Source: Narthecium ossifragum (lineage: Eukaryota; Streptophyta; Magnoliopsida; Dioscoreales; Nartheciaceae). From it: a DNA stretch of 64,000 nt. The stretch's first letter is position 1. Each line of letters opens with the position of its first letter. The stretch is from NCBI GenBank assembly GCA_963920575.1, contig OY986965.1:15080290-15144289 (forward strand). The letters run 5' to 3'. A program made the position numbers and the translations under genes. Below the pieces are notes generated by a model. That model was not told the origin of the DNA and made no database searches. It saw nothing but the letters and a program-made list of their open reading frames with translations. Shown piece after piece: positions 20,467 through 60,886 of the stretch.

Positions 20467-21871
20467 TGTTACGAGCGGTCTACTCGTGATCCTCTCGTAA
20501 TGGGTCTCTACTGCTCCAATCGATCAGAATCGGCCTGATCGGACTTGATTTGAGTCCAATGGGCTGAAGCTGGATCGAATCTGGTTCAGATCTAGCTCAG
20601 ATTGGGGTAGGACTCGACTGGGTCAAGTCTGGATTGGTTGATTGGCTCTTGGAATTGAATCTGGCTCGGATTGGGCTAAGTGGCTTGGCTAAAACGGCTA
20701 GGAGTGGGTTAAGTAGCTGAGCCAAATCAGATTGGGCTGAGTCTGAATCAACTGGCTGGCTGAACCAAGTTAGAGTTGGCTGAGCCAACTTGGTTGGGCT
20801 GAACCGGAGTTGATCCAAGGGCTGTGGTTCGCCGGAGTAGATCGCCGGCGTAGGGACGGTGGCGGCGGTCGAGATACTTCCAGGAAGGGTCGCCTGGAGG
20901 TGGGGAAGAGATCCGAAGGGTTGGATTGGTCGGAGAATGGCTGGATCAATGGGATCTAGGAGGTGGCCGGCGGTGGGTTTAGAGGGGATCGACGTCGGGG
21001 ACGACGGCGGGCTTCGGGAGTGGCTTAGGAAGGTTGGGATCGGGTCTAAGGAGGTCGGCTATGGGTTTAGAGTGGGTTGGAGGTAAGATAGGGGTCGGAC
21101 GGGGCTTGCCGGTGATGGGGACGGAGATCGGGTTCGCCGAGGACGGCGCCGAAGGCGATGGAAGACGGCGGGGAAGGGCTGGGCGGAGTCGTGTTGCCAA
21201 GGGGAAGAGGATGGCGGGTTTAGAAGGCGACGGGGGTGGCCGGAGAGGAGAGAACGGCGGTATGGCCGGCGGTAGGGTAGGGTTTGACCACGGAAGAGAA
21301 GATGGGGAAGAAGATGAACAGTGCTGGGGTGACGTGGCGGTGGGGTCGCTGACGTGGCGGAGAGAGAAAGTAACCGGGAGAAGGAAATTGAAGGTGAAGG
21401 CGATGCCGGCTGCGGAGAAGATGACCGACGGGGAAGAAGATGGATCTATGGTAGATATCGGGTGGAAGCTATATTATCTCTACTCCTATGATATTCTACT
21501 CCTATGATAATTTATCAACTACTCTTAATCATTCATCTCATCATTCATCATTCATCATAACCTAATACAAACTACTAAGGTCCTTTTATAGAGACCTGAC
21601 AGAGTCTTAATCCAACTAAAAAACCCCCTTGCTTAATTAGCAAGTAATAAGGCTTTCAAACTCAACTCAACTTCCTAACTCAAAGGGACTCTTAATTAAT
21701 TCCTAACAATCAAATATCAACTAGGACTCAATAAAAGACTAATGATAAATACTAATTAAATACTCTAGTTTGAACTAGGGAAGTCCAAGTCAAACTAGAA
21801 AAGAGGTTGAACTAGCTTGGTTCCTCTTCTGGGTTCGGGTCCAGTTGGTCGAGTCGGATCGACTCGTATCA
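20467..21871 (-). repeat. Family B 3' LTR (1405 bp)
   Basis: Bounded by TGTTACGAGCGG and ATCGACTCGTATCA on the plus strand. Contains the minus-strand TATA box (plus CCTTTTATAGAGACC near 21583), the CTTGC…GCAAG hairpin near 21630 and two TGACGTGG words near 21330-21356. Confidence 0.9.
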
Positions 21872-21885
21872 CCCCCCCTTCCTTC
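21872..21885 (-). other. Polypurine tract, family B
   Basis: Plus strand CCCCCCCTTCCTTC, that is GAAGGAAGGGGGGG in element sense, directly next to the 3' LTR. The hairpin word GCCTTG…CAAGGC lies a few bases upstream of it. Confidence 0.85.
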
Positions 21886-21951
21886 AAAATTGGCCTTGTC
21901 CTCAAGGCCAGAGTCAGGTCAGGTAGGATGGTTCCATGTGGCTGGTCAGAA

Positions 21952-22782
21952 TCAACTTGTTGCTGTAGTTCTGGACTCGGTGGGGGAGAAACCAGGTCGA
22001 TCCCATGTCGGGTCCAGTGGTAGCAGTGGCAGTGATGGATGAGCATCTGGCGGTCGATCTGACGGCTCAGGTAGCTCAAGGAATATGATCTTCAATGGCT
22101 CTCCTGGATCATGCTCATCATGTCCCATCAGTAGTGTTGCCCATGACCATAGGATGGGATCTGATGTCCATGGTCTGATCAGCTGTGCAGGGACTTGGCT
22201 TGAATCTTGGTCAAGCTGGCTTTGATCCAATCTGAAATGAAGATGGCTGGACCATGCTTCTGCTGCACTAGTCTGGACTTGGAATTGGTTGAACCAAGTT
22301 GAATCTTCAGCTGTGTTGAGTCGTACTATGGTCCAAACATGTCTGACTTGGTTGGCTCTACCGGTGTCAATCTGGACTTGAGTCAGTTGAGTCAAACTGG
22401 TGTTACCATCATAATCAGATCTAATCAGATTGAAGGAGATATCTGAATAAGGAGGGTAGCTCCTTTGATGGCTCATATCAACCTTTGAATGCTTGATCAA
22501 CGGCTGAGGATGCATCTGGATCACTTGGAGTTGATCTGGATGGTCCTGATTGCTGGGGACTCTTGGATCAGGTTCAGATCGAAGATCGGAACCACTGGAT
22601 CGAAGATCACGCTGATCAAACGGCTGGATCAAGTTGCAGTCTTGATCGGATGGCCGAGAAGCTGTCGGAGCTGGATCAACGGCGAAACGAGCTCGTCGGA
22701 GAGTGGCAACGACACAGGAAGCTTCGCAGTGACCTGGCGATTCCATCCGTACGGTTTGATCCCTGGATGGGGCTTCGAGCAC
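21952..22782 (-). pseudogene. Family B gag-like reading frame, C-terminal part
   Basis: A 276-residue frame rich in Ser, Pro, Gln and Asp, following a frameshift from the frame at 22862-23590. It has the block AEAWSSHLHFRLDQSQLD and ATLLMGHDEHDPGEPLK, both found in other B copies and, diverged, in family A (41741-42241). No known domain is recognised. Conservation between two families suggests either a real protein or a shared nucleotide-level function. Confidence 0.5.
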
Positions 22783-22861
22783 GCCGGATCTGAAGGTGGC
22801 GGCGCGGTGGAGTTCGTCGCGCGGTGTTCACCGGTGTTCTAGGCCGCGACGATGCTTGAGC

Positions 22862-23590
22862 TCATCGAGAACAGGTACGGGAAGGTCTTGGGACCTTTCT
22901 CGTGCGGTTTGATCTTGGGATCAACCTCGGTAAGTGGCGGAGTGAAGGACGGCGGAACAGGGGCTTTCGCCGGAGTTGGGTTCCGTCGATCCGAGCTTCG
23001 AACGTGGTCGTGGTCGGCCACGGTAGCTTCGGGGAAGGCCGCCTATGCTTCCCCGGTGTATAGGTGGAGAGGACGGCGTCGCAGGGCGGCGTTGGGGTGG
23101 CGGCTCGGGGACGACCCGTCGGCGCGGATGGTGAGCCGGGACGAAGTGTTGTCGGCTCCAGAGCGAGCCGGGCGAAAGGTAAGGGATGAGCCGCGGCTCG
23201 AGCCAAACCGGGAGGAGAGAGAATATCCCGGGAAAAATATGGAAAATTAGGTAAAATTCCAGGAAAATCATGGGAAGGTTCTAGAAGGTGTTCACCCGTA
23301 TCTAGCGGAGTTAAACTCGGAGTTACAATGGGAGTTGCTCTCGGAGTTGTAATTGGAGTTGCAGCCGAAGTTGCAGACGGAGTCATAACCCGAGTTGGCT
23401 CGGGGTCAGATTCCGTAATCTGGATTGCAGCTGGAGTAGGGGTCTGGCTCAGAGTCTGAGTTACCGTTAACCACCTATTGGAGATATGCTCCCACTTCAG
23501 GCTGGTGCGCTCCAAGTTTCTGCTTTGGCGTTCCATCAAAGTTGAACATAGCTTCAACTGGTCCAAACTTTCCTGGGGTACTCCGTACAT
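22862..23590 (-). pseudogene. Family B gag-like reading frame, N-terminal part
   Basis: The 242-residue frame starts MYGVPQESLDQLKLC about 65 bp below the primer site, has a helical start (LMERQSRNLERTSLKWEHI) and then Thr/Pro repeats such as ATPITTPRATPIVTP. Placement just after the primer site is where gag starts. In the copy at 49353-50741 the N- and C-terminal parts are in one frame. Confidence 0.5.
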
Positions 23591-23639
23591 GGTGGCGAAG
23601 TTTCCAGTAGGGTCTGAACCGCACAGTCGGTGGAACGGA

Positions 23640-23651
23640 GCTCTGATACCA
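23640..23651 (-). other. Primer-binding site for initiator-Met tRNA, family B
   Basis: The minus strand reads TGGTATCAGAGC, a 12-base match to the 3' end of plant initiator-Met tRNA, three bases (ACT) after the LTR end TCGTAACA. Confidence 0.92.
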
Positions 23652-23654
23652 AGT

Positions 23655-26462
23655 TGTTACGAGCGGTCTACTCATGATCCTCTCGTAATGGGTCTCTACT
23701 GCACCAATCGATCAAAATTGGCCTGATCGGACTTGATTTGAGTCCAATGGGCTAAAGCTGGATCGGATCTGGTTCAGATCTGGCTCAGATTGGGGTAGGA
23801 CTCGACTGGGTCAAGTCTGGATTGGTTGATTGGCTCTTGGAATTGAATCTGGCTCGGATTGGGCTAAGTGGCTTGGCTGAAACGGCTAGGAGTGGGTTAA
23901 GTGGCTGAGCCAAATCAGATTGGGCTGAGTCTGAATCAACTGGCTGGCTGAACCAAGTTAGAGTTGGCTGTACCAACTTGGTTGGGCTGAACCGGAGTTG
24001 ATCCAAGGGCTGTGGTTCGCCGGAGTAGATCGCCGGCGTAGGGACGGCGGCGGCGGTCGAGATACTTCCAGGAAGGGTCGCCTGGAGGTGGGGAAGAGAT
24101 CCGAAGGGTTGGATTGGTCGGAGAATGGCTGGATCAACGGGATCTAGGAGGTGGCCGGCGGTGGGTTTAGAGGGGATCGACGTCGGGGACGACGGCGGGC
24201 TTCGGGAGTGGCTTAGGAAGGTTGGGATCGGGTCTAAGGAGGTCGGCTATCGGTTTAGAGTGGGTTGGAGGTAAGATAGGGGTCGGACGCGGCTTGCCGG
24301 TAATGGGGACGGAGATCGGGTTCGCCGAGGACGGCGCCGAAGGCGATGGGAGACGGCGGGGAAGGGCTGGCCGGAGTCGTGGTGCCAAGGGGAAGAGGAT
24401 GGCGGGTTTAGAAGGCGACGGGGGTGGCCGGAGAGGGGAGAACGGCGGTAGGGTAGGGTTTGACCACGGAAGAGAAGATGGGGAAGAAGATGAACAGTGC
24501 TGGGGTGACGTGGCGGTGGGGTCGCTGACGTGGCGGAGAGAGAAAGTGACGGGGAGAATGTTACGAGCGGTCTACTCGTGATCCTCTCGTAATGGGTCTC
24601 TACTGCTCCAATCGATCAGAATCGGCCTGATCGGACTTGATTTGAGTCCAATGGGCTGAAGCTGGATCGAATCTGGTTCAGATCTGGCTCAGATTGGGGT
24701 AGGACTCTTCTGGGTCAAGTCTGGATTGGTTGATTGGCTCTTGGAATTGAATCTGGCTCGGATTGGGCTAAGTGGCTTGGCTGAACCGGCTAGGAGTGGG
24801 TTAAGTGGCTGAGCCAAATCAGATTGGGCTGAGTCTGAATCAACTGGCTGGCTGAACCAAGTTAGAGTTGGCTGAGCCAACTTGGTTGGGCTGAACCGGA
24901 GTTGATCCAAGGGCTGTGGTTCGCCGGAGTAGATCGCCGGCGTAGGGACGGCGGCGGCGGTCGGGATACTTCCAGGAAGGGTCGCCTGGAGGTGGGGATG
25001 AGATCTAACGGCTCGGATTGGTCGGAGAATGGCTAGATCAACGGGATCTTGGAGGTGGCCGGCGGTGGGTTTAGAGGGGATCAACGTCGGGGACGACGGC
25101 GGGCTTCGGGAGTGGCTTAGGAAGGTTGGGATTGGGTCTAAGGAGGTCGGCTATGGGTTTAGAGTGGGTTGGAGGTAAGATACGGGTCGGAAGTGGGGTT
25201 GACGGCGATGGGGACGGAGCCGGGTTGTTGGGTTGCCGTGGGGATCACCGGAGAAGATGGAGTGGGGTGACGGAAAAGTGATGGGCGGGGTCGTGGTGGC
25301 TCGGGGAAGAGAATGGAGGTCTTGGATGGCGAAGGGGCTGGCCGGAGAGGAGGTAGGGAAGGATGCCGGCGGTGGAGCTTAGGGTTTGGCACGGGAGAGA
25401 AGAGGGAGGAAGGAGATGCTGACGTGGCAGGTGACTGGGAGAGAGGGCTGACGTGGAGGAGAGAGAAAGTGACGGGAGATAGAGAAACACTGGTGGAGGC
25501 GGTGCCGGCTGCGGAGAAGATGACCGACGGGGAAGAAGGTGGATCTATGCTGGATATCTGGTGGAATCTACTTTACTTCTACTCCTATGATATTCTACTC
25601 CTATAATAATTTATCAACTACTCTTAATCATTCATCTCATGCATTCATTCATCATGCATCATAACCTAATACAAACTACTAAGGTCCTTTTATAGAGACC
25701 TTGACATAGTCCTAATTCAATAAGAAAACCCCCTTGCTTAATTAGCAAGTAATAAGGTTTCTGACTCAACTCAACTTCCTAACTCAAAGGGACTCTTAAT
25801 TAATCCCTAACAATCAACTAGGACTCAATAAAAGACTAATGATAAATACTAATTAAATACTCTACTTTGAACTAGGGAAGACCAAGTCAAACTAGGAAAG
25901 AGGCTGAACCAGTTTGGTTCCTCTTCTGGGTTCGGGTCCAGTTGGTCGAGTTGGATCGACTCGTATCAGAGAAGGAAATTGAAGGTGAAGGCGATGCCGG
26001 CTGCGGAGAAGATGACCGACGGGGAAGAAGATGGATCTATGGTAGATATCGGGTGGAAGCTATATTATCTCTACTCCTATGATATTCTACTCCTATGATA
26101 ATTTATCAACTACTCTTAATCATTCATCTCATCATTCATCATTCATCATAACCTAATACAAACTACTAAGGTCCTTTTATAGAGACCTGACAGAGTCTTA
26201 ATCCAACTAAAAAACCCTCTTGCTTAATTAGCAAGTAATAAGGCTTTCAAACTCAACTCAACTTCCTAACTCAAAGATACTCTTAATTAATTCCTAACAA
26301 TCAAATATCAACTAGGACTCAATAAAAGAGTAATGATAAATACTAATTAAATACTCTAGTTTGAACTAGGGAAGTCCAAGTCAAACTAGGAAAGAGGTTG
26401 AACCAGCTTGGTTCCTCTTCTGGGTTCGGGTCCAGTTGGTCGAGTCGGATCGACTCGTATCA
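23655..26462 (-). repeat. Family B 5' LTR, split by a family B solo LTR
   Basis: Begins TGTTACGAGCGG at 23655, breaks at 24558, resumes at 25974 and ends CTCGTATCA at 26462. Net length is about 1.39 kb. It matches the 3' LTR at 20467-21871 closely throughout. Confidence 0.9.
24559..25968 (-). mobile_element. Family B solo LTR inside a family B LTR (1410 bp)
   Basis: Perfect duplication GAGAA (24554-24558 and 25969-25973). Ends TGTTACGAGCGG and CTCGTATCA. The surrounding B LTR reads continuously if this unit and one GAGAA are removed, so it is a separate, later insertion into the same family. Confidence 0.92.
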
Positions 26463-29400
26463 CCTTAAGAGAGTTCTAGTCCAACCTGAATACTACTTTG
26501 CTTTAATCAGCAAGTAACTAGACTTTCCTAATAAGACTCAATCTTATCTCAACTTTCTAATAACAAGGACTCATAATAAGAACTGATTTAATCAAATCAT
26601 AAACTGAACTCAATCTAGGAAACTGACTCAATCAAGATAACTACTAACTAGGAAATCAACTAAGTAACCAAACCAGCTTGGGGATAGGAATCCTTTTCGC
26701 GGGTTGGGCTTAGGACGCCCAAAGGGACCTGGTTGCAGCCAGCTCCTTGGCGTGGGCCCACCCAAGCAAGGGCGTGGGTCCCTTCTTGGATTGGCTCAGT
26801 TCGTCCTCGTATCAGAAGAAGACCTGGACTTTAGGCCTAGGCATCCTAATGCAAACCCATTGACTAAGGATCCAGATGGCACCCAAGATGAGGCAGACTA
26901 TGTTCCTGATGATAGTCACTACCACCCATGCAGTGACAGTGAGGAAGATGAAGATGATATGCATATGTCTGAGGATAACATTGATTATGTGCCTAAGTAT
27001 GAAGGGGTCATGGCCAATGTTGACATGGAAAATCCCAATTTAAATGTGGGTTCTAAGTTCAAAGATGTAGACCAACTCAGGCTTGCACTTAGGCAACATT
27101 CCATCAAGCATAACTACGAGTTCTTTATCAAGAAGAGTGACAAGAGCAGGGTGACTGTCAAATGCAGAGATCTTGACTGCATCTGGAGGATTTATGCATC
27201 AAGACTTTATGATGGGAAGACATTTGAGGTCAAGACAGTGAGGGGGGATCACATATGTTTTGGCCGCAATGCAGCTGGAGGGGAGATGGCCACTTCAGCA
27301 TGGATTTCAAGTAAGATTACCCAGTTGATGGCAGATAATCCAAAGGTTAGACCTAGGGACATAAGTAAGCTCATGTGGGATAAGTATCAAGTCAGAGTAT
27401 CATACATGAAGTGTTGGAGGGGCAAAGAGCTTGCATATGAACAGGTATATTGGTAACATTGATGATTCTTTCAATGATGTTCCTAGTTTGAGAGAGGAGC
27501 TGCTTGTGAGAAGCCCTGGAAGTGTGATTGAGTATACAGAGGGCCCAGACCATACCTTTGAGAGATTCTTCTGTTGTTTCAAGGCATGCATGGATGGGTT
27601 CATTGCAGGATGCATGCCTTTTTTGGGTGTTGACTCAACCCATCTGAAGGGTAGGTATCTGGGTCAGCTAATGGCAGCTATAGCTTTGGATGGTAACAAT
27701 GGGTTGCTTCCAGTTGCTTTTGCTATGGTTGAGTCTGAGTGTGGGAATGCATGGAGGTGGTTCTTTGAGATATTGTCAGTAGCTATGGATGGTAGGGTTG
27801 ATGACTTGACAGTCATCTCTGATCAAGACAAAGGCATAAAAGAAGCTATGCAAGTGGTCCTACCTAATGCAGAACACAGGATATGTATGTGGCACTATTA
27901 CAAGAATTTTCGGAAGGTGTTTCCAGGAGATACCTTTGAGACTGCTGTGTGGAATGCTGCTAGGGCATTCACAGAACATGAGTTTGCTGCTGCCATAGCA
28001 GAGGTCCTAGGGAACTCAAATGGAGAAGCTGTTGTTGCTCATTTGGGGGCCATTAATAGTACATGGTCAAGGCACACCTTCAAGGATACTGGTAAGAATA
28101 TCTACATATGTAACAACTTGTCAGAGTCATTTAATTCCTGGGTATCAAATGAGAGATTTCTGCCATGTGTTGGGTTGGTGGACATGTTGAGGAGGAAGGT
28201 CATGACCAAAATGGATTTGCGAAGGAGGCTGTCAAGTAGGGGGAAGGGAAACTTGGTTCCTAATGTCAGGAAGTATGTAACTGATTTGTCAAGGAATTTA
28301 GGAGGTTACTCAGTAGTTATGGCAAGTGAATCCAGAGCAGAGGTGACATCTCCTTATGATAGGAATGAGGTTGACCTTGAAAAGCATACATTCAATTGTA
28401 GAAGATGGCAGCTGTCAGGCATGCCTTGTTTTCATGCTGCAGCAGTAATAGGTCAAGCAAGGAACCCAAATTGGGAAAGTTTTGTCCATGAATACTTCAG
28501 CTTGCAAAGGTATATATAAGTAACTATACAATATCCATGATTAAATAACCAAACATTGACCTGCAGCTATATGATGTGATACAGATACAGGGCAGCTTAT
28601 GAAGGGTTCATCAGTACACTACCAGATAAAGATCAGTGGAAAAAGATTGATCTTGGCTATACCTTGCTTCCACCCCATACACAGAGGCCTAGAGGCAGGC
28701 CAAAGAAGAAGCGCATCCGAGGAGCAGATGAGAGGACAAAGAGTAAAAGACTACATAGGTGCTCAAGATGCAAGAAGTGGAGCCACCATCAGAACACCTG
28801 CAAGGAACCTTTAGTTGGAAGAGTTGAAGAAGATGGTGAAGGGTCTCGAAGTCAGGGGTAAACACTTAGCTTTTGATGGATTTCTTATGTACCAGTTGAA
28901 TGAATATGTTAACAATTCATGCAGGGGTGCATCTAGGACTGAGACTGGCCGTGGAGATGCTGGAGCCAGGGGTGTTAGAGGTAGAGGGAGAGGCGGAGTC
29001 GGAGGAAGAGGAAGAGGTGGACCTAGGGGTGGGGGCGATCGTGCTGGTGTGGCCATGGGGAGTTCTGATGCCAGGGGTGGCAGGGAAAGAAGAAGAGGAA
29101 GAGGAAGAGGTGGGAGAAGGCCAACAAATTTTGATGTAGGGCAGATGTACTATAGGTAAGTACTTAGTATAGTAATTGACAGTTTACTAGTGCTTGTGGG
29201 TTTGACAATAAAATCTGAAACTTTGGCAACATAATTGACACAGTCAGCCTGCAATGACCCCTCATGGACTGGGGATGGGCCTTTATACACCTGATGACAC
29301 AGCTCCCGAGCCATGAGAGTTAAAGCTGCAGTCAAAAGAGGAGGAGGGCAAGGTAGGGGCACAAGAGGAGGTAAAGGCATGATACGAGGTCGAACCAAGC

Positions 29401-29638
29401 TCAGCTTGGGCAAACCCAACCCACGCCAAGGAAGGACTTGATCGAGTCTAGTCCTAGATGTGCAAGCCGAGCCCTAGCTGAACTGGCTTCAAGCCCAAGC
29501 CCGAGCATGGCCTGGACTAAGACCCACGCCCAGGAGGAACTAAGGAGGTCCCACGCAGGTCGGACCCCACCTCCTAGCTGACCCGACCATGGACCAAGCC
29601 AAGACCAAGTCCACGCCCAAGCATGGATCCATAGTCCC

Positions 29639-30592
29639 TGATACGAGGTCAAACCAAGCTCAGCCTGGGCTAGCCCAACCCACGACAAGGAAGGACTTGA
29701 TCGAGTCTAGTCCTAAATGTGCAATCCTAGCCCTAGCTGAACTGGCTTCAAGCCCAAGCCCGAGCATGGGCTGGACCAAGGAGCAGGTCCCACGCAGGTC
29801 GGACCCCACCTCCTAGCTGACCCGACCATGGACCAAGCCAAGACCAAGTCACGCCCAAGCATGGATCCATAGTCCCGGCCTTGGAACCAGGTCCCAAGCC
29901 TAATCCGGCATTAGGGATCCTAATCCCTAGCTGGATCACTTTCTTAGTTGGTTATTAGTTGATTTATTAGTTTGGATTATGATTGGTTCAGTTTTCTATT
30001 AGTAGTTATCTTGATTGAGTCTTATTATGAAAGGATTAAAACTTGCTGATTATAGCAAGATAGTAGCTATCTGATTAGATCTTATTGAGGCCTCTATAAA
30101 ATGACCTCCATAGCTTGTATTAGGCATGGACTAATTTATGAGAGTTATTATTTAGTACAGATAAATCCTAGGAGTAGAAGTAATTAGGAGTAGCTGTAAC
30201 CCTAATTCCACAAACCACCAGCCACCTTCACCCTTCTCTCTCTACAGTCGGATTCTTCTCCACCAGCCGGCCACTATCATCACCGCCGCTACCCGCCACC
30301 TCCGCCGTCCAACCCCAAGTCCCCGGCATCCCCTTGGCTGCCGTGCTTCCCTCCACCACGTTCTCCAAGGCTTGGATCTCCAAGAGAAGCCAGCCAATCC
30401 TAGAAGAGCTGCAAGGTATCCCTCTTCTCATCCATCTCCTCCTCTAGTCTTCGCTTTTCTCATCGAATACCTAAGATCCTTCTCGTAAAACCCTAAAGGT
30501 ATCTCTCGAACTAGCCATAGATTTGGCTAAAGAGGATCTGAGACAAGGCAAGAGACCATGTACGAAAGCCCTATAGAAGGTGCATCGTAACA
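29639..30592 (+). repeat. Family A 5' LTR, second layer
   Basis: Starts TGATACGAGGTC, ends GTGCATCGTAACA, followed by the primer site. It pairs with 38219-39200. Confidence 0.9.
30042..30100 (+). promoter_or_regulatory. LTR promoter: conserved hairpin and TATA box, family A
   Basis: CTTGCTGATTATAGCAAG (30042-30059) is an inverted repeat about 35 bp upstream of TATAAA (30095-30100) in GAGGCCTCTATAAAATGACC. The pair is found at similar spacing in A, A2, B and D LTRs although the bases between differ. The expected transcription start is near CTTGTATTAGG. Confidence 0.65.
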
Positions 30593-30636
30593 ACTTGGTA
30601 TCAGAGCTCCGTTTCGCGGACTGTGTCGCCCAAAGC

Positions 30637-31433
30637 TGATACGAGGTCGAACTGAGCCATCCCAAGAAGGGACCCACGTCTCTGCTTGGGTGGGCCCATG
30701 CCAAGGAGTTGGCTGTACCCAGATCCCTTTGGGTGTCCTAAGCCTAACCAGCCAAAAGGATTCCTATTTCCTAGCTAGTTTGCTTACTTAGTTGATTTCC
30801 TAGTTTGAGTTCAATTTGTGCTTAGCCAATTTTGGTTGAGTCAAGTAACCTGCTTACCTAGTTCATTCCTGATTATTAGGAGTCAGTTTGAGTTGAATTA
30901 GTAAGAGTCTTTTACTTGCTGTCCAAGCAAGAAGGTATTCATGTTATAGTAGGACTCTCTTGAGGCCTCTATAAAAGAACCTCCATAGCTTGTATTATGC
31001 ATGACGAATTATGAGAATAAAATAGAGTTATTAGTAGGATAATTTAGGAGTAGCTGTAAACCTAGGAGTAGCTGTAACCTAGTTTCCTCATAATCCACCA
31101 GCCACCTTCATCTCTCTCTACAGCCGGTCCTTCTCCATCATCGGTCTCCTTCTCCGCTGCCGTCCACTCCTTCGCCACCATCATCACCACTACTAGCCAT
31201 CATCCACGTTCTCCAAGGCTTGGATCTCCAAGAGAAGCCAGCCAACCATTGAGGAAGCTGCAAGGTAATCCTCTTCCCCATCCATCTCTCTCCTCCGGTT
31301 TTCAGCCTTCCTTGTCGAATACCTAGGGTGCTTCTCCTAAAACCCTAAAGGTATATCTCGACCTAGCCATAGGAGGAGCCGAGACTAGGCAAGAGACCAG
31401 ATACGAAAGCCCTAGAGAAGGTGCATCGTATCA
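30637..31433 (+). repeat. Family A2 5' LTR
   Basis: Contains the hairpin CTTGCTGTCCAAGCAAG near 30916 and TATAAA at 30970-30975. Ends CATCGTATCA, followed by ACTTGGTATCAGAGC. Compared with the 3' LTR it lacks about 35 bp near 30825. Confidence 0.9.
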
Positions 31434-31495
31434 ACTTGGTATCAGAGCTCTTTCCTCCTACCTGTGCCGTCCAGAATCCTTTCGAAAGAGTCCAC

Positions 31496-33495: not shown

Positions 33496-33500
33496 ACTTG

Positions 33501-35935: not shown

Positions 35936-35958
35936 AAAGCCTTCTAGAAGCTACTCTG

Positions 35959-42506: not shown

Positions 42507-42543
42507 GCCTTGAGGACAAGGCACTCTTCGAAGGAGGAGGGGA
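42507..42543 (+). other. Hairpin plus polypurine tract, outer family A element
   Basis: GCCTTGAGGACAAGGC forms a 6-bp stem with a 4-base loop (42507-42522). It is followed by CACTCTTC and the tract GAAGGAGGAGGGGA up to the 3' LTR at 42544. The same arrangement occurs in all complete A and B copies here. Confidence 0.8.
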
Positions 42544-49352: not shown

Positions 49353-50741
49353 CTATAGAAGGACTTGATTTGATTCGAAACCTGGTCCAAACTGGACTTG
49401 AATCAGTTGAGCCAAACCGGTGTTACCATCATAATCAGATCTGATCGAATTGAATATGGCATCTGAATAAGGAGGGTAGCTCCTTTCAGGGCTCATATCA
49501 ACCTTCGGATGCTTGATCAACGGTCGAGGATGCATCTTGATCACCTGGAGTTGATTTGGATGGTCCTGATTGCTGGGGACTCTTGGAGCAGGTTCAGATC
49601 GAAGATCGGAACCACTGGATCGAAGATCACGCTGATCAAACGGCTGGATCAAGTTGCAGTCTTGATCGGACGGCTGAGAAGCTGCCGGAGCTGGATCAAC
49701 GGCGAAACGAGGTCGCCGGAGTGTGGCAACGGCACAGGAAGCTTCGCAGGGACGTGAGGGTTCCATCCGTACGGTTTGATCGACGGATTGGGCTTCGAAC
49801 ACGCCGGATCTGAAGGTGGCGGCGCGGTGGATGTCGTCGCCGGTGATCGTCGGTGATCTAGGCCGCGACGGGGCTCGAGCTCGTCGGGAACAGGTACGGG
49901 AAGGTCTTGGGACCTTTCTCGTGAGGTCTGATCTTGGGATCAACCTCGGATCTTGGTGGAGTGGAGGAGGCCGGAACAGGGGCTTTCGCCGGACTTGGAT
50001 GTCGGCGATCCAGGCCTCAATCGTGATCGTTGTTGGCCACGGCGGCTTCCGGGAAGGACGCCGATGCTTCCTCGATGAACAGGTAGGGAGGAAGACGTCA
50101 GACGGCGGCGTTGGGGTGGCGGCTCGAGGTCGAGCCGAAGGCGCGGATGACGAGCCGGGACGACGAAGGGTCGGCTCAGGGTGAGCCGGGCGTGGGTGAG
50201 GGTGGTGAGCCGAAGGCAAGCCGTGGCTTGAGCCAGAGACGGGCCGAATCCAAGGAGGAGAGAGAAAACCAGGGGAAATTCCGGAAAAATATGGAAAAAT
50301 AGGTAAAAATCCAGAAAAATCATTGGAAGGTAGAAGGAAGGTTTCACCCGGGTTTGACAGAGGTTGCAACAGCAGGTGCTCTGGTTCGATCTGAGAATCG
50401 GACGGTTGTTGCTCCTCGATTAGCTCCTGGACCTTTTCTCCCTTACTGATTGCTGGTCTCTCATTCGGACTCGCAATTACAACCGGAATCATAATCTGAG
50501 TTGGCTCAGGGTCAGGTTCTGGAATTTGGGTTGCAGCTAGAGTAGGGGTTTGACTCGAAATCTGAATCCCTGTGAGACTTGTTTGAGTCACAGTTGACCA
50601 TCTACTAGTAATCTGCTCCCACTTCCTACTGGTGCGCTCCAAGGTTCTGCTTTGGCGTTCCATCAAAGTTGAACAGAGCTTCAACTGGGACTGCAAAATC
50701 TTGAATTGCTGCTCCAAACTTTCCTGGGGTACTCCGTACAT
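49353..50741 (-). CDS. Family B gag-like protein, longest uninterrupted copy (462 aa, 3' truncated)
   Basis: Opens with MYGVPQESLEQQFKILQ about 65 bp inside the primer site (50791-50802) and stays open for 462 codons until the block's broken edge. It has a helical start (LKLCSTLMERQSRTLER), a Ser/Thr/Pro segment (GIQISSQTPTLAATQIPEP), an acidic helix (GEKVQELIEEQQPSDSQIE), Arg/Pro-rich middle and Ser/Asp/Gln-rich end. Family A has matching GVQIPSQNPILAATWIAEP and IKEIVEEQQLSDTQLEQ. No enzyme motif. Position fits gag. Not recognised by sequence; a structural or RNA-binding role is only a guess. Confidence 0.5.
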   Translation of the reverse strand: MYGVPQESLEQQFKILQSQLKLCSTLMERQSRTLERTSRKWEQITSRWSTVTQTSLTGIQISSQTPTLAATQIPEPDPEPTQIMIPVVIASPNERPAISKGEKVQELIEEQQPSDSQIEPEHLLLQPLSNPGETFLLPSNDFSGFLPIFPYFSGISPGFLSPPWIRPVSGSSHGLPSAHHPHPRPAHPEPTLRRPGSSSAPSARPRAATPTPPSDVFLPTCSSRKHRRPSRKPPWPTTITIEAWIADIQVRRKPLFRPPPLHQDPRLIPRSDLTRKVPRPSRTCSRRARAPSRPRSPTITGDDIHRAATFRSGVFEAQSVDQTVRMEPSRPCEASCAVATLRRPRFAVDPAPAASQPSDQDCNLIQPFDQRDLRSSGSDLRSEPAPRVPSNQDHPNQLQVIKMHPRPLIKHPKVDMSPERSYPPYSDAIFNSIRSDYDGNTGLAQLIQVQFGPGFESNQVLL

Positions 50742-50790
50742 GGTGGCGAAGTTTCCAGTAGGTTCTGAACCGCACAGTCGGTGGAACAGA

Positions 50791-50802
50791 GCTCTGATAC
50801 CA
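50791..50802 (-). other. Primer-binding site, family B copy
   Basis: GCTCTGATACCA on the plus strand, i.e. TGGTATCAGAGC in element sense, adjoining the LTR at 50806. Confidence 0.9.
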
Positions 50803-50805
50803 AGT

Positions 50806-52164
50806 TGTTACGAGCGGTCTACTCGTGATCCTCTCGTAATGGGTCTCTACTGCTCCAATCGATCAGAATCGCCCTGATCGGACTTGATTTGAGTCCAATT
50901 GGCTGATTTGGCTAGCTGGATCGGATCTGGCTTGAGCTGGATCGGATCTGGCTGAGCCTGATTGGATGGGACTTGACTGGTTCAAGTCTGAATTGATCTG
51001 GATCAGGTTGACCAGGTTCAATTGGGCTAAGTGGCTGGATTGGGTTGGATTGGACTGACTGGCTCGGCTGAATCAATTAGAGTTGGTTGAGTTGAACCTG
51101 ATTTGAAGTGGCTGAACCGGTTTGATCCAAGGGCTGAGAATCGCCGGAGTAGATCGCCGGCGTAGGGACGGCGGCGGCGGTCGGGGTAGTGGCAGGGAAG
51201 GTCGCGGGGTGATGGGGAAGAGATCTACCGGCTCAGATCTGGAGGATAGGTGGCGGATCGAGCGGATCTGGGAGGTGGACGGCTGGTTTAGAGGAGGCCG
51301 GCGTCGGGGACGACGACGGGGCGCTCGACGGGCCTTGGGACGGTCGGGATCGGGTCTAGGGATGCCAGGGAAGGGTTTTAGGAAGGTTTGGAAGTGGGAT
51401 AGGGGTCGGACGCGGTTTGCCGGTGATGGGGACGGAGATCGGGCTCGCCGGGGACGGCGCCGAAGGCGATGGAAGACGGCGGGGAAGGGATGGCCGGAGT
51501 CGTGGGAGGTAGGGGAAGAAGTTGGCGGTCTTGGTTGGCGACGGGGAAGGCCGGAGAGGGCTTGACGGAGGGAAGGCCGGCGGTAGGTAGGGTTGGGTCA
51601 CGGGAGAGAAGAGAGGAAGGAGATGAGCTGACGTGGCGATGACGTGGCGTGGGGTCGCTGACGTGGCGGAGAGAGAAAGTGGCGTGGAGAAAGAGAAACA
51701 CTGGTGGAGGCGGTGCCGGCTGCAGGGAAGATGACCGACGGGGAAGAAGATGGATCTATGGTGGATTTCGGGTGGAATCTACTTTACTTCTACTCCTATG
51801 ATATTCTACTCCTATGATAACTTATCAACTACTCTTAATCATTCATCTCATGCATCCTTACCTAATACAAACTACTGAGGTCCTTTTATAGAGACCTTGA
51901 CAGAGTCCTAATCCACTAGAAAAACCCCCTTGCTTGATTAGCAAGTAATAAGGTTTCTGACTCAACTCAACTTCCTAACTCAAAGGGACTCTTAATTAAT
52001 TCCTAACAATCAACTAGGACTCAATAAAAGGCTAATGATAAATACTAATTAAATACCCTAGTTTGAACTAGGGAAGTCCAAGTCAAAGTAGGAAAGAGGT
52101 TGAACCAGTTTGGTTCCTCTTCTGGGTTCGGGTCCAGTTGGTCGAGTCGGATCGACTCGTATCA
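50806..52164 (-). repeat. Family B LTR shared by two internal regions (1359 bp)
   Basis: Starts TGTTACGAGCGG and ends GACTCGTATCA. Followed by a C-run (52165-52177) that is the polypurine tract of the next internal region. An LTR with internal sequence on both sides indicates recombination between two copies or tandem duplication. Confidence 0.85.
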
Positions 52165-53221
52165 CCCCCCCCCCCCCTTCCTTCAAAATTGGCCTTGTCC
52201 TCAAGGCCAGAGTCAGGTCTGGTAGGATGGCTCTATGTGGCTGGACCGAATCAACTTGCTGCTGTAGTTCTGGACTCGGTGGGGAGAAACCAGGTCGATC
52301 CCATGTCGGCTCCAGTGGTAGCAGTGGCCGTGATGGATGAGCATCTGGCGGTCGATCTGACGGCTCAGGTAGCTCCAGGAATATGATCATCAATGGCTCT
52401 CCTGGATCATCCTCATCATGTCCCATCAGTAGAGTTGCCCATGACCATAGGATGGGATCTGATCTCCATGGTCTGATCAACTGTGCAGGGACTTGGCTTG
52501 AATCTGGGTCAAGCTGGCTTTGGTCCAATCTGAAGTGAAGATGGCTGGACCACGCTTCTGCTGCACTAGTCTGGGCTAGAAGTTGGTTGAACCAAGTTGA
52601 ATCTTCTGCTGTGCTGAGTCGTACTCTGGTCCAAACATGTCTGACTTGGTTGGCTCTACCGGTGTCAATCTGGACTTGAATCAGTTGAGCCAAACCGGTG
52701 TTACCATCATAATCAGATCTGATCAGATTGAATATGGCATCTGAATAAGGAGGGTAGCTCCTTTCAGGGCTCATATCAACCTTCGGATGCTTGATCAACG
52801 GTCGAGGATGCATCTTGATCACCTGGAGTTGATTTGGATGGTCCTGATTGCTGGGGACTCTTGGAGCAGGTTCAGATCGAAGATCGGAACCACTGGATCG
52901 AAGATCACGCTGATCAAACGGCTGGATCAAGTTGCAGTCTTGATCGGACGGCTGAGAAGCTGCCGGAGCTGGATCAACGACGAAACGAGGTCGCCGGAGT
53001 GTGGCAACGGCACAGGAAGCTTCGCAGGGACGTGAGGGTTCCATCCGTACGGTTCGATCGACGGATTGGGCTTCGAACACGCCGGATCTGAAGGTGGCGG
53101 CGCGGTGGATGTCGTCGCCGGTGATCGTCGGTGATCTAGGCCGCGACGGGGCTCGAGCTCGTCGGGAACAGGTACGGGAAGGTCTTGGGACCTTTCTCGT
53201 GAGGTCTGATCTTGGGATCAA
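52058..53221 (-). CDS. Family B gag-like protein, C-terminal part (387 aa, truncated at start)
   Basis: Open frame that overlaps the previous copy's sequence in its first part and then continues through AEAWSSHLHFRLDQSQLD, ATLLMGHDEDDPGEPL and WDRPGFSPPSPELQ. It then passes through the polypurine tract, read as a Gly run, into the LTR. A sister sequence in family A shows the same blocks. The natural start is missing because of the inversion at 53244. Confidence 0.45.
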   Translation of the reverse strand: MIPRSDLTRKVPRPSRTCSRRARAPSRPRSPTITGDDIHRAATFRSGVFEAQSVDRTVRMEPSRPCEASCAVATLRRPRFVVDPAPAASQPSDQDCNLIQPFDQRDLRSSGSDLRSEPAPRVPSNQDHPNQLQVIKMHPRPLIKHPKVDMSPERSYPPYSDAIFNLIRSDYDGNTGLAQLIQVQIDTGRANQVRHVWTRVRLSTAEDSTWFNQLLAQTSAAEAWSSHLHFRLDQSQLDPDSSQVPAQLIRPWRSDPILWSWATLLMGHDEDDPGEPLMIIFLELPEPSDRPPDAHPSRPLLPLEPTWDRPGFSPPSPELQQQVDSVQPHRAILPDLTLALRTRPILKEGGGGVIRVDPTRPTGPEPRRGTKLVQPLSYFDLDFPSSN

Positions 53222-53243
53222 CCTCGGATCTTGGTGGAGTGGA

Positions 53244-53431
53244 GCGCACCAAGTAGGAAGTGGGAGCAGATTACTAGTAGATGGTCAACTGTGACTCAAA
53301 CAAGTCTCACAGGGATTCAGATTTCGAGTCAAACCCCTACTCTAGTTGCAACCTCTGTCAGACCCGGGTGAAACCTTCCTTCTGATCAGATTGGAGATTG
53401 GATGGGACACCGCGTTGGGTCACGCCCGATG
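53244..53431. other. Inverted scrap and filler junction
   Basis: 53244-53384 matches, in reverse complement, 50527-50640 joined to 50338-50372. 53405-53431 then contains ACCGCGTTGGGTCA (also at 49322-49337) followed by CACGCCCGATGTC (also at 49272-49284). Such copied fragments are typical of double-strand-break repair. Confidence 0.7.
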
Positions 53432-54279
53432 TCTCTACTGCTCCAATCGATCAGAATCGCCCTGATCGGACTTGATTTGATTCCAATTAGCTGATTTGGC
53501 TAGCTGGATCGGATCTGGCTTGAGCTGGATCGGATCTGGCTGAGCCTGATTGGATGGGACTTGACTGGTTCAAGTCTGAATTGATCTGGATCAGGTTGAC
53601 CAGGTTCAATTGGGCTAAGTGGCTGGATTGGGCTGGATTGGGCTGGATTGGACTGACTGGCTCGGCTGAAGCAATTAGAGTTGGTTGAGCCAACTTGGTT
53701 GGGCTGAACCGGAGTTGATCCAAGGGCTGTGGTTCGCCGGAGTAGATCGCCGGCGTAGGGACAGCGGCGGCGGTCGGGGTAGTGGCAGGGAAGGTCGCGG
53801 GGTGATCGGGAAGAGATCCACCGGAGTGGATTGGTCGGAGAGTGGCTAGATCGACGGGATCTGGAGGTCGACGGCGGGAGGATTTGGGTTTGCCGGCGTC
53901 GGGGACGACGGAGAGCTCGGCTGGGGTCCTTGGGACGTCGGTAAGGATCGTGGGGAGACGAGGAACGGATCTGGGAGGTTTGGAGGCGGGATAGGGGTAG
54001 GACGTGGGGTGCCGGAGATGAGGACGAAGGTCGGGCTTGCCGGGGAAGGCGCCGGAGAGGACGGAGGAGGCGGAGGAGCGGCTTGGCGAGGTCGTGGGAT
54101 CTTGGGGAAGTCGGTGGTGACCTTGGTTGGCGACGGGGGCGGCCGGAGAGGGGTTGACGGAGGAGATCGGCGGTGAAGCTCGGGTTCGGCTGGAGGAAGA
54201 CGATGAACAGCGCTGACGTGGCGGTGGGGTCGATGGCGTGGCGGAGAGAGAAAGTGACGGGAAGAGAGAGAAATACTGG
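53432..54279 (-). repeat. Truncated family B LTR
   Basis: Lacks the first 35 bp (starts at TCTCTACTGCTCC) and ends at GAGAAATACTGG, joined to the A2 LTR. Has a local triplication of GGaTTGGGcT near 53625-53650. Confidence 0.75.
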
Positions 54280-55097
54280 ATGGGACCCACGTCCTTGCTT
54301 GGATGGGCCCACGCCAAGGAGTTGGCTGCACCCAAGTCCCTTTGGGCGTTCTAAGCTCAGCCGGCCAAAGGAATCCTATTCCTAGTTGGTTTGCTTACTT
54401 AGATGATTTCCTAGTTAGTAGTTATCTTGATTGAGTCAGTTTCCTAGTTTGAGTTCAGTTTATGATTTGCTTTATTAGTTCCTATTAAGAGTCCTAGTAA
54501 TCAGGAAGTTTGAGTTATGATTGAGTCTTAGTAGGAAAGTATGGTTACTTTCTGATTAAAGCAAGGTAGTTCTCTAGTTGGAGTAGAACTCTCTTGAGGC
54601 CTCTATAAAAGGACCTCTATAGCTTGTATTAAGTCATGGACGAATTTATGAGAGTTATTATTTAGTAGAGATAAATCTTAGGAGTAGAAGTAATATAGGA
54701 GTAGCTGTAACCCTAATTCCACAAGCCACCAGCCACCTTCATCTCTCTCCTGCCGGATTCTTTCTCCACCAGCCGGCCACCATCCATTGCCGTCCACCGC
54801 TGCCATCTACAGTGCACGTCCCCATCACCGACGTCCCCTTGGCTGCCGTGCTTCCCTCCACCACGTTCTCCAAGGCTTGGATCTCCAAGAGAAGCCAGCC
54901 AACCCTAGAGGAGCTGCAAGGTATCCCTCTTCTCATCCGTCTCCTCCTCTAGTCTTCGCTTTCCTCGTCGAATACCTAGGGTCCTTCTCCTAAAACCCTA
55001 AAGGTATCTCTCGACCTAGCCATAGATTTGGCTAAAGAGGATCTGAGATAAGGCAAGAGACCCGGTACGAAAGCCCTTGAGAAGGTGCATCGTATCA
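54279..55097 (+). repeat. Family A2 LTR, truncated at its 5' end
   Basis: Starts within the LTR at TGGGACCCACGTCC and ends GTGCATCGTATCA directly before GTCGA. TATA box in CTCTATAAAAGGACC near 54603. Confidence 0.8.
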
Positions 55098-56482: not shown

Positions 56483-57469
56483 TGTTACGATGCACCTTCT
56501 CAAGGGCTTTCGTAACTGGTCTCTTGCCTGGTCTCGGATCCTCCTTAGCCAAATCTATGGCTAGGTCGAGAGATACCTTTAGGGTTTTAGGAGAATGACC
56601 CTAGGTATTCGACGAGGAAGACGAAGACTAGAGGGAGAGACGGATGAGATGAGGGAAACCTTGCAGCTCCTCTAGGGTTGGCTGGCTTCTCTTGGAGATC
56701 CAAGCCTTGGAGAACGTGATGGAGGGAAGCACGGCAGCCAAGGGGACGTCGGGGACTTGGGGTTGGACGGCGGAGGTGGCTGGTAGCGGTGGTGATGATA
56801 GTGGCCGGCTAGTGGAGAAGAATCCGGCAATAGAGAGAGATGAAGGTGGCTGGGGGATTTGTGGAAGATTAAGTTACAGCTACTCCTAGGGTTACAGCTA
56901 CTCCGAAATTATCCTACTAATAACTCTATTTTATTCTCATAATTTGTCATACATACCTAATACAAGTTATGGAGGTCCTTTTATAGAGGCCTCAACAAGA
57001 TCTAATTCAGATAAATACTATCTTGCTATAATCAGCAAGTTGTATCCTTTCGTAATAAGACTCTATCAAGATAACTACTAACAGAAAACTGACTCAATCA
57101 TAATCCAAACTAATAAATCAACTAATAACCAACTAAGAAAGTGATCCAGCTAGTGATTAGGATCCCTAATGCCGGATTAGGCTTGGGACCTGGTTCCAAG
57201 GCGGGGACTATGGATCCATGCTTGGTCGTGGACTTGGTCTTGGCTTGGTCGATGGTCGGGTCAGCTAGGAGGTGGGGTCCGACCTGCGTGGGACCTCCTT
57301 AGTTCCTCCTGGGTGTGGGTCCTGCTCCTTGATCCAACCCATGCTCGGACTTGGGCTTAAAGCCAGTTAAGCTAGGGCTCGCCTTGCACATCTAGGACTA
57401 GACTCGATCAAGTCCTTCCTTGGCGTCGGTTGGGTTGGCCCAGGCTGAGCTTGGTTCGACCTCGTATCA
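56483..57469 (-). repeat. Family A 3' LTR (987 bp)
   Basis: Plus strand TGTTACGATGCACC to CCTCGTATCA. Polypurine tract follows at 57470-57484 (plus TCCCCTCCCCCTTTG). Confidence 0.92.
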
Positions 57470-59029
57470 TCCCCTCCCCCTTTGAAGAGTGCCTTGTCCT
57501 CAAGGCCTTAATTTGCTGAGGGAAGAAAATTCTGCTCTTGTCGACCCGGAGTGACCTGGCTGGACCGCAACTGCAACTTTCGACTCGGTGGTGAGAAACC
57601 TGGTCGGTCCCATGGTGGATCTAATAGTATCCGAAGCGGCGAGTGAGGGGGCCATGCTGCCGGTCTGGAAGGAGGAGGCTGTAACTTAGGTGGATCTGGC
57701 GGCCTCTGGAACTCCAAGAAGTAGAGGGTGGCTGTAGATCGACGATTGTGCCACCTCAAGTGCTGGCGTCCTAGGTCAAAGACTCAGTCAACCTGAATCA
57801 TATCCTTCCAAGGTTGAAGTAGACCCAAGACGGTGGCTGGATACAGTCGTGCCGAGGACGGAGCATTCGGGGGACGATCTGATGGTTCAGGTGGCTCCAA
57901 ACATGGGTTCTTCAATGGTTCTCCTGGATCATCCTCGTCACATCCCATGATTAGTGTCGCCCAAGACCATAGAATAGGATCTGATCTCCATGGCCTTGTC
58001 GGATGTGCAGGGTCTTGGCTTGATGCTGAGTCAAGCTCGCTTGGGTCAAGTCTGAAGTGAAGTCGGCTGGGCCACGCTTCTGCTGCACTTTTTGGATCTT
58101 GATCAGGTTCAGTTTGGCTGAGCTTGATGGAGCTTGGCTAGCTGCAATGAGATCTAGCCGGATTGATTCTGGCTGCATCCAATTGAGTCTGACTTAGCCT
58201 GGTCTGATCTGAGATTGGTCGGATCTGGTTGGTGTAACCAAACCTGGTTGTGCTTGGATGGAATCTGACCAAGTCTTGTAAGCTGCAATCTGACTCGATC
58301 AATTGTAGGTGATGGAGTCGGAATTTGATCAGGTTCAAACCGTAGTGATTTGATTTGATCTGATCAGATGGCTGAAGTGGTCTGGCAACTGAGAGGGGAC
58401 TGAACTTGGTTGCCAGTGAGGGATGTTCATCAGGGTTTAGATCCCCTGGAGAAGAGGGGATGAGAGGATGGGGGTTCGGTCCAAGTGGCGGATCTGGAGG
58501 GGGTTTGGGGACGGCCTCGGTAAGGCTACGGGAAGGGTCAGGAGGGTTAGGGGACGGTCTTTGGTGCCTTCAGAGATCCTTCAGTGGGCCATGGAAGGAG
58601 GTTATGGTAGGATCAAGGACAGGTAGGCAGCGATTACCTTGGGGGTTGCTGCCGGAGTTGAAGGAGAGGGATTGGGGATTGGGGTAGGAGTGAGGAGGCC
58701 CTTGGAGAAGGTTACATGGTGCGGGGAGGGCTTCAACTAAGGTGAGGTTGGCTGCTAAAGAGGAATTGCTGGTGGTGGGGAGGTGGGCTTTGGATGTAGG
58801 GAATAACGAAGAAGATGATGACAGGGTGCTGACTGGTCTGAGATGTGGGGCGGGATTTGGCTGAGGTGGTGAAGCTGGGTAAAGTGGCAGCGGGTGTTGC
58901 TCAAGCTGAGGATCTGATAGCTCTGGCTCCTCAACTATCTCCTTGATCTTTTCTTCCCTGATGCTTGTTGCCGCCCCACTTGGAGTTGATCTCGGAATCT
59001 CATGTGGAGTCGGAGTCGTATGTGTAGTC

Positions 59030-59833
59030 CTAATCCAGATAGAGCTGGGTTTGTTCCGCAATCCAAGTCACAGCTAAAATGGGATTTTGACTAGGAATAT
59101 GAACTCCGGTAGGGCTTGACTGGTTTGTAGGAGAATAGCATTGGATCATTGTTTCCCACTGTTCTGCTAAAGGGTGAGGTAGAGGGATCCAACTTTGGAC
59201 TGCTTCCTTCCATTGTTGAGCTGTAGGGTAAGCCGTACTCCAAGTTTGACTAGGATTCCTAGTTGGAGTAGGATTTGTAATCCTAGTACCAGTAGGATTT
59301 TGAGTCCAAGTCGTACTCTGAGCTTGACTCGGATTCCTAGTTGGAGTAGGATTTGTAATCCTATTTCCAGTAGGATTTGGAGTCCAAGTTGTACTCAAAT
59401 ACCCGTTGGTGTTTGCAGGTTTGGGTTGGTTGTACGGTGGAGGTAATGGCTGATACGGTGGTGATGGATTGTAGGGAAGACTAGGGTTGTACGGTGCGTA
59501 GGGAGGTGGCATAGGCTGCCGATGTGGAGGCTGGGCATGGGCCGGGTATAGGGGCTGGTATGGTGGCGGAGGAAGGGTAGTGGGACTAGGTATGGGTGAA
59601 GGATGGACCGGCTGAGTAAGAGGCTGATATGGTAGTGGAGGGACTCGGCCAGGTACAGTAGGGTTAGGGTTAGGGAACTGATGGCCAAGGGGAAGAGGAT
59701 GAGTGGGTTGAACCGGTTGGGTAGTAGGCTGGTTAGGAGGAATTGGATTGTAGGCTGCATAGGGTGGAGGTAGATGATGATATGGTAGGGGTATCATTGA
59801 TGGCGGTATAGGATAGGCTGGTACTCCTGCCAT
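59030..59833 (-). CDS. Family A proline-rich gag-like protein, best-preserved copy
   Basis: 268 codons from MAGVPAYPIPPSM, about 50 bp inside the primer site. Layout: a Pro/Tyr/Asn-rich segment with PPYAPYNPSLPYNP and PPYQPLPPPYNQP (residues about 15-145), two tandem units of TTWTPNPTGNRITNPTPT type (about 150-200), AQQWKEAVQSWIPLPHP, then SPTNQSSPTGVHIPSQNP. A one-base shift near 59040 moves the continuation to 58570-59061, which has REEKIKEIVEEPELSDPQL and more Pro/Ser. No signal peptide, membrane segment, Cys knuckle or enzyme motif. It might be a derived gag or a captured proline-rich host protein. Confidence 0.5.
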   Translation of the reverse strand: MAGVPAYPIPPSMIPLPYHHLPPPYAAYNPIPPNQPTTQPVQPTHPLPLGHQFPNPNPTVPGRVPPLPYQPLTQPVHPSPIPSPTTLPPPPYQPLYPAHAQPPHRQPMPPPYAPYNPSLPYNPSPPYQPLPPPYNQPKPANTNGYLSTTWTPNPTGNRITNPTPTRNPSQAQSTTWTQNPTGTRITNPTPTRNPSQTWSTAYPTAQQWKEAVQSWIPLPHPLAEQWETMIQCYSPTNQSSPTGVHIPSQNPILAVTWIAEQTQLYLD

Positions 59834-59880
59834 CAGAGTAGCTTCTAGAAGGCTTTGGGCGGCACAGCCCGTGGAACGGA

Positions 59881-59892
59881 GCTCTGATACCA
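59881..59892 (-). other. Primer-binding site, family A reference copy
   Basis: Minus strand TGGTATCAGAGC, matching the 3' end of initiator-Met tRNA, three bases from the LTR. Confidence 0.92.
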
Positions 59893-59895
59893 AGT

Positions 59896-60886
59896 TGTTA
59901 CGATGCACCTTCTCAAGGGCTTTCGTAACTGGTCTCTTGCCTGGTCTCGGATCCTCCTTAGCCAAATCTATGGCTAGGTTGAGAGATACCTTTAGGGTTT
60001 TAGGAGAAAGACCCTAGGTATTCGACGAGGAACGCGAAGACTAGAAGGGGAGACGGATGAGAAGAGGGATACCTTGCAGCTCCTCTAGGGTTGGCTGGCT
60101 GGCTTCTCTTGGAGATCCAAGCCTTGGAGAACGTGGTGGAGGGAGGCACGGCAGCCAAGGGGACGCCGGTGACTTGGGGTTGGACGGCGGAGGTGGCTGG
60201 TAGCGGTGGTGATTACAGTGGCCGGCTGGTGGAGAAGAATCCGGCTATAGAGAGAGATGAAGGTGGCTGGGGGATTTGTGAAAGATTAAGTTACAGCTAC
60301 TCCTAGGGTTACAACTACTCCTAAATTATCCTACTAATAACTCTATTTTATTCTCATAATTCGTCATGCATACCTAATACAAGTTATGGAGGTCCTTTTA
60401 TAGAGGCCTCAACAAGATCTAATCAGATAACTACTATCTTGCTATAATCAGCAAGTTACAATCCTTTCCTAATAAGACTCAATCAAGATAACTACTAATA
60501 GAAAACTGACTCAATCATAATCCAAACTAATAAATCAACTAATAACCAACTAAGAAAGTGATCCAGCTAGGGATTAGGATCCCTAATGCCGGATTAGGCT
60601 TGGGACCTGGTTCCAAGGCCGGGACTATGGATCCATGCTTGGGCGTGGACTTGGTCTTGGCTTGGTCCATGGTCGGGTCAGCTAGGAGGTAGGGTCCGAC
60701 CTGCGTGGGACCTCCTTAGTTCCTCCTGGGTGTGGGTCCTGCTCCTTGGTCCAGCCCATGCTCGGGCTTGGGCTTGAAGCCAGTTCAGCTAGGGCTTGGC
60801 TTGCACATCTAGAACTAGACTCGATCAAGTCCTTCCTTGGCGTGGGTTGGGCTGGCCCAGGCTGAGCTTGGTTCGACCTTGTATCA
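59896..60886 (-). repeat. Family A 5' LTR (991 bp)
   Basis: Plus strand TGTTACGATGCACC to CCTTGTATCA. TATAAA on the minus strand at 60397-60402 within CCTCTATAAAAGGACC, with the CTTGC…GCAAG inverted repeat near 60437-60456. Confidence 0.92.

Follow-up and report, generated by a model that had tools for sequence, protein, structure and literature searches.

A stretch of 64,000 nucleotides from Narthecium ossifragum (contig OY986965.1 of assembly GCA_963920575.1, positions 15,080,290 to 15,144,289; hereafter the window) contains, in its region 19983-60886, three related families of long terminal repeat (LTR) retrotransposons, here called A, A2 and B, in which no pol domain was found among the open reading frames (ORFs) scanned. 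The families share several segments and are mosaics of each other, and we consider it likely that they are helper-dependent, i.e. non-autonomous, plant LTR retrotransposons which exchange pieces by template switching in shared particles. All coordinates are positions in the window, and strands are given relative to it.

According to this explanation, the RNA of the elements would be made from the LTR promoter and be taken into particles of an autonomous relative acting as helper, where reverse transcription would be primed by the initiator Met-tRNA. The families would probably share particles, which would allow the reverse transcriptase to switch templates among them and so give rise to mosaic LTRs and internal regions, and insertion would be carried out by the integrase of the helper. 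A sense ORF begins with a conserved ATG shortly after the primer site, in the usual place of gag; it is probably translated and may be kept for packaging or particle assembly, this last step being the weakest of the scheme and a guess.

Three related families without pol

The copies were placed by comparison of the window with itself and by reading of the LTR ends. In this way, eight bounded insertions, belonging to three LTR families, were recognised in the region in addition to fragments (Table 1). Five of the insertions are two-LTR elements (three A, one A2 and one B) and three are solo LTRs, and 5-bp target site duplications (TSDs) were found at all eight, in agreement with an earlier note on this DNA which had reported at least five two-LTR copies and several solo LTRs. 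The insertions are nested to a depth of up to four, with a B solo LTR in A2#1, A2#1 in A#2 and A#2 in A#1; in a second nest, B#1 lies inside an A2 solo LTR which itself lies inside the ORF of a MULE transposase. The outer end of this A2 solo LTR is TAATACG, a single-base departure from TGATACG. The ungapped identity of the LTR pairs is 95.1% for A#2, 95.6% for A#c, 96.3-96.8% for A#1, 97.9% for A2#1 and 97.6-98.8% for B#1. By this measure, A#2 is older than the A2#1 copy inserted in it, matching the nesting, but it also comes out slightly older than its own host A#1, which is the wrong order by a small difference.

The LTR start TGATACGAG occurs 12 times in the window compared to 0.35 expected occurrences, a count reached by none of 100 shuffles, and all 12 exact sites are starts of LTRs placed in our scheme. 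The exact initiator-Met primer site TGGTATCAGAGC is present at six places, in each case directly following one of the group's LTRs, and all six 3' LTRs viewed are preceded by a purine tract, so that the common LTR ends, primer site and polypurine tract of the earlier note were all recovered. A TATAAAA core in the same surroundings was found at 14 places in the window, all of them in LTRs of the group or in LTR-like fragments. Direct LTRs with TG..CA ends, short TSDs, a primer site and a polypurine tract together place the elements in the order of LTR retrotransposons. A fourth proposed family, 'D', was not confirmed, in contrast to A, A2 and B; the candidates for it are 53431-55097 and 10250-10769. 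The latter is an LTR-core fragment outside the range covered by the earlier note, with the TATA core of the group at 10413, about 80% identity to the truncated LTR X and no clear LTR ends, and is perhaps a further family or 'D' itself. At 33496-33511, where the B solo LTR entered A2#1, the target sequence resembles the primer site with late mismatches; the A copies suggest that this is an ordinary part of the ORF.

A, A2 and B are homologous in the leader, a mid-ORF segment, the 3' end and the LTR core. Between A and B, the leader aligns from the primer site on over 77-78 columns at 73-75%, the mid-ORF segment at 59-63%, an internal block of 230-281 columns at 77-84%, and the 3' end including the purine tract at 62-66%. 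The LTR stretch around the TATA box is common to all three families, with 64-69% over 193-437 columns at E values of 1e-15 or lower, except for a single match of 111 columns at E 7e-4. The internal regions measure 1783 nt (B#1), ~2322 nt (A#2), ~2365 nt (A2#1), 2426 nt (A#c) and 2616 nt (A#1) after subtraction of nested inserts, which bears out the earlier figure of 1.8-2.6 kb.

None of 30 element ORFs scanned with Pfam carries a retroelement domain, the two matches below cut-off (E 0.27 and 0.48) being unrelated, and a Gag domain was likewise not found in these 30 ORFs. Among control ORFs of the same window, by comparison, six of ten showed Pfam domains (copia reverse transcriptase (RT), integrase and gag, gypsy gag, and MULE), with Gag detected at 4785-5525 and 17474-17992. 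A motif scan of the sense frames revealed no RT, protease, zinc-knuckle or integrase-finger motif, only a lone LPQG. The absence of RT, integrase and protease from the 30 ORFs and the motif scan, already stated in the earlier note, characterises the elements as non-autonomous. The three families form one related group lacking pol, and a common pol-less ancestor with a helper would fit their sequences. The earlier note had proposed such an ancestor, or a helper; the related group without pol and the homologous leader, ORF segment and LTR core stand, although each family may instead, with less likelihood, have lost pol independently, starting from related autonomous ancestors.

Mosaic structure between the families

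The mosaic structure between the families, which had been overlooked together with the conserved start codon, was seen both in the internal regions and in an LTR. A block of 511 nt in A2#1 is 91% identical, without gaps, to positions 36165-36675 of A#2, compared to 64-66% in its flanks counting gaps and ~75% ignoring them. Since the synonymous distance in this block is also low (0.11; most comparisons made in frame within the 3' part gave ~0.4-0.5), we rejected protein constraint as cause of the similarity in favour of exchange. The second case is the 5'-truncated LTR X. Up to its position 480 (~54758), 52 of 56 informative sites match A2, and beyond it 42 of 44 match A. Its TATA box is located at position 326, there are no informative sites at positions 321-400, and the single clear switch takes place ~115-165 nt beyond the TATA box. 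This switch would lie in R or early U5. The families are mosaic, probably as a result of template switching inside particles that they share.

Mosaics of this kind could also come from gene conversion or unequal recombination among genomic copies. The contrast between A and A2 becomes smaller if gaps are ignored, at 91% versus ~75% instead of 65%. An exchange between DNA copies would be favoured by the closeness of the nested copies and by the rearranged element B#2, which indicates recombination of DNA. The LTR of B#2 has a primer site on one flank and a purine tract on the other, and self-comparison gave a head-to-tail order internal-LTR-internal with an overlap of 579 bp at 99.1% identity, suggesting that B#2 is left over from a tandem array. 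However, LTR X has a single switch near the expected site of the first template switch, although the switch may instead lie in U5. We give an origin of the mosaics at the DNA level some chance, but a limited one.

The open reading frame at the gag position

In all five readable leaders, the main long ORF opens with the first ATG, located 63-65 nt beyond the LTR; it starts with MAGVP in A#c and A#1, MARRA in A2#1 and MYGVP in B#1 and B#2. In eight of eight internal pieces, no more than 2 of 500 dinucleotide shuffles had an open frame as long as the longest one observed. Frame-pair scores favoured the main frame in most comparisons, most clearly for A#c/A2 (720 versus 523 and 409, with 555 for the best antisense frame), but do not separate the frames for A#1/A2 (376 and 368). 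The predicted protein would combine a GVQIPSQ-type motif with an acidic helix, a further alpha-helical stretch and a part rich in proline; the two motifs quoted earlier as common to A and B were found in A#1 and B#2, but the acidic helix is missing from B#1. The A/A2 ORF also contains direct repeats at a spacing of 24 nt, in part 54 nt (31843-32068, 36349-36550 and 40574-40871), across which the frame stays open because the spacings are multiples of three.

Searches for homologous proteins returned nothing at E 1 or lower, either for the B ORF (7992 candidates scored) or for a piece of the A ORF (1030 candidates), in a database poor in plants. A control search with the MULE transposase gave only two matches, one of them from Juncus effusus, and the missing homologues therefore say little. 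A 24-base pattern of LTR end plus primer site had no match in viral contigs. The structure models were poor, with a mean pLDDT (predicted local distance difference test) of 50 for the A ORF (5 rows) and 44 for the B ORF (alone); the sole part modelled with fair confidence is a helix at residues 28-79 of the B ORF.

In comparisons of A with B, the mid segment gave ratios of nonsynonymous to synonymous change (dN/dS) of 0.41 and 0.32 in the main frame, versus 0.79-1.14 in the other frames, where 6-7 stops occur, and the 3' block gave 0.34-0.40; Fisher tests on these main-frame values (0.32-0.41) gave p 0.0003-0.003. Purifying selection on the ORF may be at work, although the codon comparisons are only suggestive.

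Several findings weigh against a maintained ORF or a helper-dependent life cycle. Under a null which keeps composition, i.e. with the same substitutions shuffled within base and CpG classes, p rises in the mid segment to 0.06 and 0.02 and in the 3' block to 0.08, 0.01 and 0.02; these values are uncorrected, overlapping and not independent, and non-coding frames of two neutral controls reach 0.03 and 0.01 under the same null. Copies within a family look neutral in the main frame (dN/dS 0.79-1.38), as is expected of dead copies, and only 6-11 of the 38-52 indels between A and A2 in the 3' part are multiples of three. The Pfam scan left out 31 of 51 further ORFs of 90 amino acids or more, and no helper was seen within the window.

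Some of these findings fit the possibility that the three families arose independently, each by internal deletion of an autonomous family of its own, the ORF being a functionless remnant of the 5' portion of gag, before the capsid, and of the end of pol. The ORF occupies the position of gag, the selection signal is weak, the indels are not in triplets, and a reading of the conserved 3' end of the three families through the purine tract gives LEDKALFEGGGDD, which may resemble the end of plant gypsy polyproteins. On the other hand, A and B have several separate internal segments in common and in the same order, a pattern that speaks for a single pol-less ancestor or for mutual exchange, and no match to Gag or pol was obtained in the 30 ORFs. 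For these families, a set of independent deletions seems somewhat unlikely to us.

It is also conceivable, though doubtful, that the internal region acts only as RNA, in the manner of a large retrotransposon derivative (LARD), and that the ORFs are by-products of the C-rich sense strand, which is apparent from the base skews. The lack of a known domain and the neutrality of the copies agree with this, and the dinucleotide shuffles alone average open frames of 80-145 amino acids; however, the observed frames are longer than those of the shuffles in all eight pieces, the position of the first ATG is conserved, and the lowest dN/dS between A and B is found in the main frame. We keep to helper-dependent elements exchanging pieces in shared particles. 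A more far-reaching version, in which the lineage would have lost gag and pol before the split of A, A2 and B and would keep from the gag position a non-Gag protein of its own that links the element RNA to a foreign particle, with the families exchanging pieces there by template switching, appears quite improbable to us.

Other features of the window and comparison with known systems

Table 1 Features of the window, with strand, bounds of LTRs and target site duplications.
Feature	Position	Strand	Details
A#1, two-LTR element, outermost of nest	29380-43518	+	5' LTR 29380-29638 plus 39206-39927; 3' LTR 42544-43518; TSD AGGCA
Duplicated GTCCC (TSD of A#2)	39201-39205		between A#2 and remainder of 5' LTR of A#1
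A#2, two-LTR element within 5' LTR of A#1	29639-39200	+	LTRs 29639-30592 and 38219-39200; TSD GTCCC
A2#1, two-LTR element directly beyond primer site of A#2	30637-35935	+	LTRs 30637-31433 and 35106-35935; TSD AAAGC
Block of A2#1 shared with A#2	31683-32193	+	511 nt
B solo LTR in ORF of A2#1	32194-33495	+	TSD ACTTG
A#c, two-LTR element without interruption	56483-60886	-	5' LTR 59896-60886; 3' LTR 56483-57469; TSD CATAT
Start of A ORF in A#c, from first ATG (MAGVP...)	59013-59833	-	frameshift near end of stretch; end approximate
B#1, two-LTR element	20467-26462	-	3' LTR 20467-21871; 5' LTR 23655-24558 plus 25969-26462, split by B solo LTR; TSD CCTTA
B solo LTR in 5' LTR of B#1	24559-25968	-	TSD GAGAA
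A2 solo LTR, split by B#1	19983-20466 and 26463-26814 (span 19983-26814)	-	TSD GAAGA
B#2, rearranged	49353-53350	-	truncated internal / LTR 50806-52164 / truncated internal
B ORF in B#2, from first ATG (MYGVP...)	49353-50741	-	open up to truncation
B-type LTR, truncated	53431-54278	-	from self-comparison
LTR X, 5'-truncated, mosaic A2/A	54279-55097	+	from informative-site count
snoR24	7765-7854 and 12939-13024	-	above Rfam gathering score
MULE transposase ORF	19207-20004 and 26668-28519	+	
Gypsy-type Gag, unrelated retroelement piece	4785-5525	-	
Copia RT, integrase and Gag, unrelated retroelement piece	14712-17992	-	
Adjacent direct duplicate	62586-63377		396 bp, 88.9% identity

Besides the elements of the group, the window contains two matches to the CD-box small nucleolar RNA snoR24, both in a stretch that is duplicated at 79% identity. 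The ORF of the MULE transposase is cut by the A2 solo LTR holding B#1, and Pfam recognised a MuDR DNA-binding and a MULE domain in its second part.

The earlier note knew of no named family with this make-up. In barley, however, a set of related non-autonomous LTR families has been described, namely RLG_Sabrina, RLG_WHAM and RLG_Derami (and RLG_Surya), which are thought to derive from one non-autonomous derivative; according to the part of the study concerned with them, three of these families are without an identified autonomous partner, primer site and LTR termini are conserved, and gag is intact in Sabrina_A and WHAM but broken in Derami (PMC5738225). Likened by description and not by sequence, this set is the closest precedent, as it likewise comprises related non-autonomous elements with a conserved primer site and conserved LTR termini. 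It differs in its intact or broken gag, since no Gag domain was found in the A, A2 and B ORFs scanned.

In the original definition of LARDs, the internal region is non-coding; that of A, A2 and B holds an ORF with a conserved start which is longer than in shuffles, selection on it being only suggestive. Under the rule of no domain and at least 2000 bases, as worded in the relevant part of PMC6022998, all five two-LTR elements qualify as LARDs. An identity as TRIM (element <2000 bases) was rejected, as the shortest two-LTR element is longer than 4 kb. No hammerhead matched in Rfam at gathering score in the window, and we therefore rejected a retrozyme identity as well. TR-GAGs, which are described as able to transpose (PMC8704663), likewise combine a pair of LTRs with a single main ORF in the place of gag, but the A, A2 and B ORFs scanned lack a Pfam Gag domain. 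Additional ORFs of plant LTR elements, among them Retand, code for conserved internal-region proteins of unknown function and are, in the accounts cited, mostly located between pol and the 3' LTR, often in antisense, in elements with gag and pol (PMC7264820; PMC11963269). The ORF of A, A2 and B, in contrast, is in sense and directly after the primer site.

With regard to exchange, LTR swapping in soybean reportedly produced mosaic LTRs of the kind expected when co-packaged RNAs are switched in R. For ONSEN, most LTR recombinants described agreed with a first template switch from one co-packaged RNA to another within R (PMC5668417), and co-packaging with recombination at the first template switch has been reviewed (PMC12786077). 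The mosaic LTRs of ONSEN are thus comparable to LTR X, but ONSEN is autonomous and exchanges within one family, whereas here the exchange is between families.

Judged by the descriptions of these systems, the elements of N. ossifragum are set apart by an ORF without Gag domain at the gag position together with exchange between families, and look like a variant of the helper-dependent type already known from cereals. Non-autonomous LTR elements contribute much to large plant genomes, and little is known about how they recruit a helper. The parts which the families have in common, i.e. leader, ORF segment, 3' end and promoter core, are those likely needed for recruitment. If such elements do keep a non-Gag protein, this would be an unusual strategy of a parasite, and from mosaics between families one could tell which elements use the same particles.

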